DNA from: Roseofilum acuticapitatum BLCC-M154
Lineage (GTDB): Bacteria; Cyanobacteriota; Cyanobacteriia; Cyanobacteriales; Desertifilaceae
Assembly (NCBI RefSeq): GCF_030068475.1
Contig: NZ_JAQOSP010000053.1
Location: forward strand, 1-52,770
Reading direction: 5' to 3'
DNA length: 52,770 nt
Below are positions 4,519 to 42,255 of this stretch, piece by piece; within the stretch, counting starts at the first letter, position 1, and every line of letters starts with the position of its first letter. Position numbers and translations under genes: made by a program. Under the pieces are notes generated by a model that searched no databases, had not been told where the DNA came from, and worked only from the letters and a program-made list of their open reading frames with translations.

Positions 4519-4623
4519 CCCCCGAAAAAAAAATTAGCTCAACCTCTTTTCAAATGAAGTCTTATGTGTATAATAGATCGAGTGGGGTGAATTTCAACGT
4601 CTTCACCCGTGCTGAAATGTTCT

Positions 4624-4696
4624 GGGGGTATAGCTCAGTTGGTAGAGCGCCTGCTTTGCAAGCAGGATGTCATCGGTTCGAGTCCGTTTACCTCCA
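4624..4696 (+). tRNA. trnA-UGC: tRNA-Ala (anticodon TGC)
   Basis: A complete cloverleaf of 73 nt without encoded CCA. The acceptor stem is GGGGGTA/TACCTCC with discriminator A. The D-arm is GCTC/GAGC, and the anticodon arm is CCTGC-TTTGCAA-GCAGG with TGC at 4657-4659. The T-arm is ATCGG-TTCGAGT-CCGTT. The second T-stem pair (positions 50:64, bases 4673 and 4687) is a T-T mismatch, while every other pair is sound. The gene is followed 27 nt later by an element whose first part is complementary to the middle of this tRNA. Confidence 0.97.
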
Positions 4697-4723
4697 TCCC
4701 AATCAATTTATATAGAGAAAAAC

Positions 4724-4822
4724 TTTCACCGATGACATCCTGCTTGTAAGGCAGGCTTGCACCTAAATTTCACACGAAATGACTATAACCTTCCCTTTTT
4801 GGGGAAGTCAAGTGATGGGTCA
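4724..4822 (+). repeat. tRNA-adjacent antisense element, copy A (Ala)
   Basis: Begins with TTTCACC. Bases 4728-4756 are the reverse complement of tRNA-Ala bases 4649-4677: 27 of 29 match, and the two differences become G-U pairs in RNA. The shared tail follows: GCACCTAAATTTCAC, a hairpin CTTCCC/GGGAAG (4790-4795 with 4802-4807, loop of five T plus G), then GTCAAGTGATGGGTCA ending at 4822, 126 nt after the tRNA. The same layout follows tRNA-Leu and tRNA-Pro here. Function unknown. There is no T-run after the hairpin, so a simple terminator is not obvious. Confidence 0.8.
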
Positions 4823-7857: not shown

Positions 7858-7875
7858 TCATCTACCCCCAAAGTT

Positions 7876-8541
7876 ATGGCAATCCTGTATACCCTACATC
7901 CCGAAACACCGCAACAGCGAACCCTCCAAGAGATCAAAGAAGCTCTTCAAGATGGAGCGGTGATGTTATATCCCACTGATACCGTTTATGCGATCGGTTG
8001 CGATCTGAATGCTAAATCCGGTATCGAGCGCGTCAGACGGATTAAACAACTCTCTAATGATAAACCTTTAACCTTCCTCTGTTCCTCCCTTTCTAATGTA
8101 GCCAGCTATGCCACAGTGAGTGATGTGGCTTATCGGATTATGAAGCGTTTAATTCCTGGGCCCTATACCTTTTTATTGCCTGCAACCAAGGAGGTTCCCC
8201 GGTTGGTGATGTCTCCCAAACGCCGAACGACTGGAATTCGAGTGCCGGATAATCCCATTTGTTTAGGTCTGTTGGAGGCTTTAGAGAATCCGATTATCTC
8301 CACCTCCGCGCACTTGGTGGGCGATGAGGAAATGTCCGCCACTCCCAGCGCTCCCGAATATACTTCGACACAAGAACTCTTTGACCGTCTCGATAAACTG
8401 GTGGATATCATTATCGATGATGGTTTACCGGTTGAATCCCAAGTTTCGACCGTTCTGGATTTAACTCAGATGGAACCAAAAGTGGTGCGTGAAGGTCTGG
8501 GATGGGAAGCAGCATCGGATTGGGTGTCCGATGCTGATTAG
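7876..8541 (+). CDS. Sua5/YciO/YrdC family protein (threonylcarbamoyl-AMP synthase-like)
   Basis: Family members make threonylcarbamoyl-AMP from threonine, bicarbonate and ATP for the t6A modification at tRNA position 37; YciO-type members are less well defined. The 221-residue product shows the basic-pocket pattern: YPTDTVYAIGCD (about 32-43), KQLSNDKPLTFLC (about 56-68), PGPYTFLLPAT (about 95-105), RRTTGIRVPDNP (about 117-128) and ISTSAHLVG (about 140-148). It has no C-terminal Sua5 domain. SAH in place of the usual SAN and the overall form lean towards YciO, so I give no tsaC symbol. Expression must involve sequence inside larC or the 18-nt gap, because the start-to-start spacing is so small. 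Confidence 0.85.
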   Translation: MAILYTLHPETPQQRTLQEIKEALQDGAVMLYPTDTVYAIGCDLNAKSGIERVRRIKQLSNDKPLTFLCSSLSNVASYATVSDVAYRIMKRLIPGPYTFLLPATKEVPRLVMSPKRRTTGIRVPDNPICLGLLEALENPIISTSAHLVGDEEMSATPSAPEYTSTQELFDRLDKLVDIIIDDGLPVESQVSTVLDLTQMEPKVVREGLGWEAASDWVSDAD

Positions 8542-17065: not shown

Positions 17066-17170
17066 TGACCCATTACTTGACTTCCCGAAAAAGGGAAGGT
17101 CATAGTCGTTTTAGGCAGATTTTAGGCATAGGCACAGCTTCCCATGACCTTAAAAGTCGTGAGAGTGAGA
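17066..17170 (-). repeat. tRNA-adjacent antisense element, copy L (Leu)
   Basis: Read on the minus strand, this starts about 23 nt after the tRNA-Leu 3' end with a CTCAC-rich segment. Bases 17145-17163 are a perfect 19-nt inverted copy of tRNA bases 17215-17233 (variable arm region). RNA pairing extends through 17164-17166 with one wobble. The shared tail then reads GCCTAAA..., GACTATGACCTTCCC, five T, hairpin partner GGGAAG (17081-17086 on the plus strand with 17093-17098), and GTCAAGTAATGGGTCA ending at 17066, 127 nt past the tRNA. The tail is nearly identical to the one after tRNA-Ala. Confidence 0.8.
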
Positions 17171-17192
17171 GTCCGTAAGCGTTAGTTCTTGA

Positions 17193-17539
17193 TGGGGGCA
17201 GAGGGACTTGAACCCTCACGACTTTTAAGGTCAACGGATTTTCATTCTCCCACAGCTTTCGCTGTTGCCTTGAGACGTTGCTCACCGGTTTTGAGAATCG
17301 GACCCTCCCTTTACCCTCGGCTTAATACGTTAGGGTAGCTCCCGTCGGGCCTCTGCACCTTCCTTTGATACTCAGTTGGGGATCGTAATCCTCAATTTTT
17401 CTCTTAGGCTTGGCTCAGGATTGCCATGTCTGTTACCAGATTTAGGTTTCCCTGAGTTTGAGAGCTTACACTTAGCAAGTTTCTCTGCTAAGGCTCAGTT
17501 TTCTAAGTCCGTAGCGTCTACCATTCCGCCATGCCCCCC
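17193..17539 (-). tRNA. trnL-UAA: tRNA-Leu (anticodon TAA), split by a group I intron
   Basis: The exons are 17506-17539 (5', 34 nt) and 17193-17242 (3', 50 nt). Joined, they give a normal 84-nt class II tRNA: acceptor GGGGGCA/TGCCCCC with discriminator A, anticodon loop CTTAAAA and T-arm GAGGG-TTCAAGT-CCCTC, with no encoded CCA. The split falls between the first and second anticodon bases, the classical position of the cyanobacterial and plastid trnL intron. It is transcribed away from ndhL. An AT-rich stretch (TATATAATTAC around 17583) upstream on the minus strand may be its promoter. Confidence 0.97.
17243..17505 (-). other. Group I intron in trnL(UAA)
   Basis: A 263-nt self-splicing intron. 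It retains the hallmark core segments: an internal guide near the 5' end (GAGCC pairing with the exon end CTT region), TCAGGGAAACCTAAATCT, GGCAATCCTGAGCCAAG, GTGCAGAGGCCCGACGGGAG and the closing GGAGAATG with terminal G at 17243. It encodes no homing endonuclease. This intron is ancient in cyanobacteria and is widely used as a phylogenetic marker. Confidence 0.95.
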
Positions 17540-41989: not shown

Positions 41990-42063
41990 CGGGGCGTAGC
42001 GCAGCTTGGTAGCGCACCACTTTGGGGTAGTGGGGGTCGTGGGTTCAAATCCCGCCGCTCCGA
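41990..42063 (+). tRNA. trnP-GGG: tRNA-Pro (anticodon GGG)
   Basis: 74 nt, no encoded CCA. Acceptor CGGGGCG/CGCTCCG with discriminator A, D-arm GCGC/GCGC, anticodon arm CCACT-TTGGGGT-AGTGG (GGG at 42023-42025), and T-arm GTGGG-TTCAAAT-CCCGC. It lies 36 nt after the DUF1818 gene and is followed by the third copy of the tRNA-adjacent element. Confidence 0.96.
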
Positions 42064-42091
42064 TTGATTAAAAAGGCTTGTATGGCAGAGT

Positions 42092-42180
42092 TTTCACCCT
42101 CGACCGCCACTCCCAAAAGGGATGCCTGCACCTAAATTCACCATAGCACTCCCCCCAATGGGGGTCAAGTAACTAGGTCA
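42092..42180 (+). repeat. tRNA-adjacent antisense element, copy P (Pro)
   Basis: Begins TTTCACC 28 nt after tRNA-Pro. Bases 42097-42121 align, with two single-base gaps and four substitutions, to the reverse complement of tRNA bases 42017-42043 (anticodon arm through start of the T-stem). The tail reads GCCTGCACCTAAATTCACC, a C/G hairpin (42152-42156 with 42060 plus 100 to 42164, loop AAT), then GTCAAGTAACTAGGTCA ending at 42180, 117 nt past the tRNA. It is the most diverged of the three copies. Confidence 0.7.
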
Positions 42181-42204
42181 TGGGGTAAGATATAAATAGA
42201 TATC

Positions 42205-42255
42205 CTCTATGACCACCATAGAGAACCACCATGGCCCTGAATTTTGTATTCAGGG
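42205..42255 (+). promoter_or_regulatory. Two leader hairpins upstream of purine permease
   Basis: CTCTATG/CATAGAG (42205-42223, 5-nt loop) and CCCTGAAT/ATTCAGGG (42235-42255, 5-nt loop) lie in tandem about 60-110 nt before the permease start. They could form a structured 5' leader. The sequence does not match the purine riboswitch core that I know, so no class is claimed. Confidence 0.45.

Follow-up and report, generated by a model that had tools for sequence, protein, structure and literature searches.

Inverted copies of the target tRNA at the attachment sites of tRNA-inserting elements in Roseofilum and its relatives

Three tRNA loci and the sequences that follow them

The analysed window, i.e. 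the whole stretch of 52,770 nucleotides, is contig 53 of the 154 contigs that make up the 5.22-Mb genome of Roseofilum acuticapitatum BLCC-M154. Its three tRNA genes are each followed by an inverted copy of part of the tRNA (referred to below as the mirror), by presumed integrase arm repeats and by a promoter-like tail directed outwards, which was recognized in each case by promoter scoring. The tails end 117–127 nt beyond the tRNA at all three sites, as the first-pass annotation of this DNA had described.

At site 1, tRNA-Ala(UGC) occupies positions 4623–4699 (+; ARAGORN limits; 4624–4696 in Rfam). The presumed attachment core, extending from the T-loop to the end of the linker (4675–4722, +), was inferred from the direct repeats found at attL and attR of other elements. 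It is followed by the mirror (4722–4766, −), defined by a repeat scan and by comparison of offsets, by two presumed arm repeats (TGCACCTAAAT and TTCACACGAAAT; 4758–4780, +), whose flavours are also found at far ends of elements, and by the tail (TTGACT-18-TATAGT; 4782–4811, −). The inverted pair noted previously at this site (4649–4677 and 4728–4756) was recovered with a length of 29 nt and 93% identity. Its two differences had been described as G-U compatible; they are better explained by a chimeric mirror, since the block at offsets −28 to −13 from the T-loop matches tRNA-Val(tac) at 100% (Ala, 88%) and the block at −12 to −1 matches Ala at 100%.

Site 2 lies at tRNA-Leu(UAA) (17193–17538, −). 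Its mirror (17140–17174, +) was identified by both the repeat scan and alignment; in the scan it forms an inverted pair with 17204–17238, over 35 nt at 83% identity. The presumed arm repeats (TGCCTAAAATC and TGCCTAAAAC; 17107–17129, −) and the tail (TTGACT-18-CATAGT; 17077–17106, +) follow. The gene contains a group I intron (17279–17514, −; Rfam RF00028, 68.4 bits), which is usual for tRNA-Leu(UAA) among cyanobacteria.

The repeat scan of the window yielded no inverted pair at site 3, tRNA-Pro(GGG) (41990–42063, +). Gapped alignment placed a degenerate mirror at 42083–42129 (−), for which the tRNA of the same site was the top one of 49 scored. It is accompanied by a presumed arm repeat (TGCACCTAAAT; 42127–42138, +) and by the tail (TTGACC-17-TGC-TATGGT; 42140–42168, −). 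A short sequence beyond the tail, ATAGATATCYTCTATGACCACCATAG (42180–42240), is also present downstream of tRNA-Thr(CGU) (locus L008) and is perhaps a small repeat.

Enrichment of the tail beside tRNA genes was borne out at the genome level: the pattern GTCAAGTNAN{1,4}GGTCA has seven matches in 5.22 Mb, each of them on the strand of a tRNA gene and about 101–337 nt beyond it (the reversed control pattern has two matches in the same genome). Of 291 genomes of the order searched with a model of the tail (R1), three had clear matches (E ≤ 5e-8), all three belonging to this genus, and three others had single weak matches. A more permissive search added weak matches in genomes G127 and G093, several of them at mirrored tRNAs.

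Target specificity of the mirrors

The 3' flanks of 132 tRNA loci from the window's genome and three others of the same genus (G000, 49 loci; G076, 44; G057, 33; G093, 6) were compared with their own tRNA and with other tRNAs. This analysis confirmed that the inverted tRNA copy is real and wider than first noted. A score of at least 40 was reached at 50 of the 132 loci with their own tRNA; when tRNAs of a different isotype were used, 24 of 5068 comparisons reached it, so the expectation that such segments match their neighbours better than other tRNAs holds. The own tRNA ranked first at 57 of the 132 loci and, with ties included, at 52 of the 56 loci whose own score was at least 34. Mirrors were also identified beside tRNAs for Phe, Trp and His. 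A literature search covering open-licence papers, preprints excluded, did not find such a mirror described.

The profiles were built from 54 loci that had a score of at least 34, a rank of 4 or better and a start no farther than 40 nt away, after removal of L045 and L185 by hand. This selection favours good matches, so that all figures within the set are descriptive only. Watson–Crick pairing amounts to approximately 63–93% per position from −22 to 0 relative to T54, and the mirror is strongest for tRNA nucleotides ~28–51. A mismatch of 2 nt recurs in the T-loop (T55 unpaired in 35 of the 54 mirrors, C56 in 40), beyond which pairing resumes at A57/A58, as it is also present at T54. The own-specific excess over decoys placed at the same anchor is pronounced across most of the interval −26 to −3 and slight past the T-loop; the own tRNA was first in 46 of 54 cases for offsets −12 to −1, in 38 for −28 to −13, and in 19 for +5 to +13. 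Some mirrors fit another tRNA better than their own, e.g. that of G057 Pro(cgg), with a score of 52.0 for its own tRNA versus 85.5 for Pro(tgg), and that of G000 Val(tac). A foreign donor for the odd Pro mirrors of G057 was sought in 291 genomes; no tRNA matched with three or fewer mismatches, and the only two matches were themselves G057 mirrors.

The carrier element and its integrase

We consider it very probable that each site of the window is an attL, a body-less scar left by elements that insert into tRNA genes with the aid of a divergent tyrosine recombinase, carry the core at both ends and in many cases possess a mirror. The order at attL is tRNA, linker, mirror, two 11-nt integrase arm repeats and tail. 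The core, repeated at both ends of the element, extends from the tRNA T-loop to some 16–28 nt past the gene, and the integrase gene is located at the other end, beside the displaced 3' fragment of the tRNA. In many elements the mirror fills a spacer of nearly fixed length between the core and the arm repeats. Far ends corresponding to the three sites were not found in the window. An 876-aa DUF3854/DUF5906/D5_N protein is encoded on L061, a contig of the same genome that ends in a related tail.

One element of G076 is bordered by tRNA-Gln on one side and, on the other, by a direct repeat (~37 nt) that copies the 3' portion of this tRNA, beginning at the T-loop and running beyond the end of the gene. 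It contains pieces of a similar primase gene (by eye), an HTH gene and a gene for a 527-aa protein. The latter has no Pfam and no credible NCBIfam match, and its match in PHROGs (a family of unknown function) is weak (E 0.0097). The protein retains the tyrosine recombinase catalytic residues R, K, HxxR, H and Y, the first H being replaced by Y in 1 of 10 rows, and the best fold match of its structural model (pLDDT 76, pTM 0.47) is the Tn1549 integrase (E 2e-4, with low TM-scores). Matches to this integrase were detected in 12 of 59 relatives, own genome counted; among 388 genomes of the class, 11 had matches at E ≤ 1e-20. Nineteen of 20 integrase copies have a tRNA 3' fragment starting at the T-loop upstream of them (by eye; L133 and L147 are less clear), and this fragment is preceded by paired direct repeats that resemble the ones found after the mirrors. 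Both states of one insertion site are represented within the sampled genomes: the orthologous tRNA-Ala(tgc) locus carries the mirror and tail in G000, G076 and G057, and is empty, without a mirror, in G034, G127, G093 and G004.

Of the first-pass interpretation, these results support the mobile nature of the element, the scaffold common to the sites and the segment specific to each tRNA; they speak against two other parts, the resemblance to IS200/IS605 and the homing guide (considered below). An IS200/IS605 end is not supported because the element encodes a tyrosine recombinase, and because the hairpin and TCAAG of the tail read better as a spacer and a −35 box; moreover, no Pfam match to a Y1 transposase or TnpB was obtained among the element proteins scanned. 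A type V-K CRISPR-associated transposon with a tRNA-homing spacer is likewise not supported (no Pfam match to Cas12k or a Tn7-like transposase among the same proteins).

Several individual loci are worth describing. The element of L244 (G154:C1) is minimal, with the integrase gene at 501–1793, tRNA-Thr at 2285–2356 and the attachment sites within about 2 kb. To the left of position 1533 in L101 (G076:C42), a tRNA-Trp 3' fragment is followed by an old linker, a mirror remnant and a tail (by eye), an arrangement that we read as an older scar hit by a more recent insertion, of which this is the far end. L136 (G057:C123) is an exception, in which a flipped (sense) mirror of Pro type is placed between two arm types without a tRNA core; it is perhaps a junction of tandem elements. 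In several elements the tail adjoins a member of a small protein family of about 160–200 aa (L100, 1444–1962; L102, 3–608; L104, 1996–2481), for which no credible Pfam match was obtained.

For the arm repeats of 51 of the 54 mirrored loci, the median distance from the tRNA to their start is 63 nt (range 58–95). In five attLs of other families they start at 63 nt (G046, G154) or, in the mirror-less ones, at 61 nt (two sites of G117, one of G064); in Nostoc the distance is 19 nt. Mirrors in these more distant genomes scored 39.5 in G046 (decoy maximum 26, shuffle maximum 31), 60.5 in both G154 and G128, which belong to one genus (decoy maxima 39 and 42), and 40.5 in G200 (decoy maximum 29, shuffle maximum 35). 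The mirror of a Xenococcaceae MAG is doubtful (36.5 versus a decoy maximum of 38). The mirror is absent from three attLs of two genomes of family f13 (two in G117, one in G064) and from one of Nostoc sp. XA010, all associated with the same integrase family. In the mirror-less Nostoc locus (L168) a near-whole tRNA-Lys is duplicated (273–342 and 7864–7936).

The tRNA-facing strand of the tail often reads TTGMCY-17/18-TGnTATGGT or similar. A promoter score of at least 9 was recorded on this strand at 20 of 53 mirrored loci and on the other strand at none of the 53, compared with about 11% of shuffles and 6 of 76 other loci. An extended −10 box at +78 to +94 is present at 34 of 54 mirrored loci (absent from 20) versus 3 of 76 others, a comparison for which we claim no p-value, because the motif was set after viewing the data and the copies are kin. 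All three of these non-mirrored loci (G000 Arg(ccg) and Ser(tga), and G076 Phe) have arm repeats. In other families, TGC-TATATT occurs at +87–88 in the mirrored G046, G154 and G128; no such motif was seen near this position in the mirror-less attLs of G117, G064 and Nostoc. Two cases run counter to this association: the mirrored attL of G200 has no extended −10 box near +87, and in the Nostoc element, which has no mirror, the tRNA copy at the far end is followed by TG-TATAAT at +85. Judged by these motifs, the tail is better read as a putative promoter facing the tRNA (extended −10 near +77–95) than as an IS200/IS605 end. Across the junction of an excised circle the same strand would face the integrase gene.

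Origin and possible role of the mirror

The explanation that we favour, with a probability of roughly 0.4, is that the tail acts as an outward promoter and that the mirror, transcribed first as a sense copy, neutralizes the antisense tRNA that follows it. In the excised circle, the tail promoter would read across attP into the integrase gene. In the integrated state, it would instead read into the tRNA and yield antisense tRNA, with the arms, the mirror (a sense piece of the tRNA) and the antisense tRNA following one another in a single transcript. The sense mirror could then fold onto the antisense tRNA within the same RNA, which may shield the host tRNA from the antisense RNA and may also stop or destroy the transcript. 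Such a fold would require the matching tRNA; in the circle this partner would be missing and the integrase message would stay open. More tentatively, the attachment site as a whole may serve as a target-matched RNA antidote and sensor, shut only by the matching tRNA, whose mirror is updated from the neighbouring gene.

The outward transcript of the Ala site has a predicted folding energy of −63.5 kcal/mol (z −7.1), with the mirror paired with the antisense tRNA. The mismatches of the 54 mirrors also bear on this scheme. Those of the G-U type that a duplex of the antisense copy and the tRNA would tolerate, invoked earlier in support of such a duplex, are not in excess (77 versus 80 of the mirror-image type). 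Per available site, mismatches tolerated by the duplex of the sense mirror and antisense tRNA are the more common (80/668 versus 77/952 for the opposite duplex, p 0.01), which is consistent with the antidote and could alternatively reflect strand-biased mutation. Protection of a convergent operon of the element was rejected as a general rule, as the orientation of element genes varies.

Nearly as likely as the antidote is a mirror without function. The spacer would contain a short inverted T-loop-like motif on which the nascent strand folds back during replication, copies the adjacent tRNA and returns; mirrors would be remade occasionally and otherwise decay. Consistent with this, specificity for the own tRNA is pronounced to one side of the T-loop and slight to the other, the longest perfect runs exceed those of permutations (p 0.006), and the mirror of site 1 is an Ala/Val chimera. 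Between G076 and G057, the mirror of Pro(ggg) is decoupled from its linker (22 of 25 linker positions identical, only 19 of 30 in the mirror, with the G076 mirror perfect). In 12 comparisons of these two genomes at the same tRNA, the linker was conserved more than the mirror in seven, so that purifying selection on the mirror is not evident. The ability of template switching to create and maintain hairpins is described in PMC8794818, and we think it probable that the mirrors were both made and patched in this way, with the neighbouring tRNA serving as the template while the DNA was replicated. The quasipalindrome hairpins treated there likewise arise by reverse-complement copying from nearby sequence; in contrast to them, the mirrors recur at many tRNA loci with one anchor. 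Fresh copying with every insertion is ruled out by the mirrors that fit another tRNA (G057 Pro(cgg) and G000 Val(tac)). Against a purely passive origin, a runs test showed no significant clustering (p 0.24), the strict motif YTYTCA is confined to 23 of the 54 mirrored loci (and occurs at 9 of 78 others), the association with an outward promoter is not predicted, and the length of the spacer that the mirrors fill is conserved.

It is unlikely that the mirror acts at the DNA level, as a crossover-dead inverted copy of the attB region that, after integration, is bound by integrase or pairs with the tRNA in a cruciform and thereby locks the integrated state. The T55–C56 mismatch (35–40 of 54) would block strand exchange, the mirror occupies the spacer of almost constant length that separates the core from the arms, and at attL it and the tRNA together make up an inverted repeat; however, the match reaches well past a core half-site and is weak across the T-loop, complete relatives lack a mirror, and one integrase type serves many different tRNAs. 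Inverted repeats with an unpaired stretch at the recombination site are a feature of CTXphi attP and integron attC. A self-folding attP of the CTXphi kind was rejected, as the left arm of attP beside the core is unlike the tRNA (by eye), so that attP alone lacks the main partner of the mirror.

The specificity for the own tRNA, together with the pairing of the mirror with tRNA sequence just beyond the core, would suit a guide, RNA or single-stranded DNA, that selects the integration site by pairing with the target tRNA gene. This homing role, proposed in the first-pass annotation, is improbable: relatives without a mirror have integrated at tRNAs, and some elements, such as those with the misfitting mirrors named above, sit at the worse-fitting tRNA. 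Slightly less probable still is control by read-through, in which the tRNA transcript, its native terminator displaced, would run into the mirror and fold on itself, e.g. for destruction. The predicted fold is stable (−84.1 kcal/mol, z −6.5), but mirrors lie beside tRNAs for Phe, Trp and His, whose loss would be costly, and the mismatch types do not favour the duplex; by the same measure they give no support to the earlier suggestion of antisense control by a plus-strand RNA.

The carrier is a known kind of element; the mirror matched to the target tRNA at its attachment site is the feature of which no description was found among the open-licence papers searched. With ICEs, prophages and satellites that integrate into tRNAs by tyrosine recombinases it shares the catalytic residues, the 3' part of the tRNA at both ends, arm-type direct repeats, and the occurrence of insertions and empty sites; it differs from them in the target-matched inverted tRNA copy between core and arms and in an integrase without a Pfam or NCBIfam match. 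In ICEKp1, ICEclc and ICEEc1, a promoter opposite the integrase end is usable only after excision (as described for these elements, and reported for the far-end integrase promoter of ICEKp1, in PMC13023037). The elements described here may share this feature, their promoter-like tail having the appropriate orientation. The arrangement proposed here differs from theirs: the integrase gene occupies the far end, whereas the putative promoter adjoins the tRNA and is directed into it, with the mirror in between. Tycheposons of Prochlorococcus and others, according to the available part of PMC10872708, also have a tyrosine recombinase and a tRNA at their border; they are cargo elements of 4–200 kb, compared with a distance from tRNA to far end of about 2 kb (G154) and 6 kb (G076) here, and that part of the description does not mention a mirror.

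How mobile elements that insert into tRNA genes avoid harming them is only partly known. The mirrors provide a target-matched sequence at some 50 loci in three or more lineages, associated with a tyrosine recombinase family that serves many tRNAs per genome and has no profile in the libraries searched. If the antidote reading is true, the mirror might stop the element from silencing the tRNA that it occupies. A functional mirror would represent a new means of safe or state-sensitive insertion into tRNA genes; otherwise, the mirrors would constitute an unusually clear natural record of template switching writing mirrors beside genes.

Two further observations concern tRNA genes of the sampled genomes. 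Three short contigs of G000 (C11, C102 and C122) carry pairs of tRNA-Ile and tRNA-Ala genes with an encoded CCA, which sets them apart from most other tRNAs of the genome; these contigs may be rRNA operons of foreign origin within the assembly. In G076 (C35, 46839–47278) and G057 (C52, 18060–18761), tRNA genes form tight arrays such as occur in phages or plasmids.
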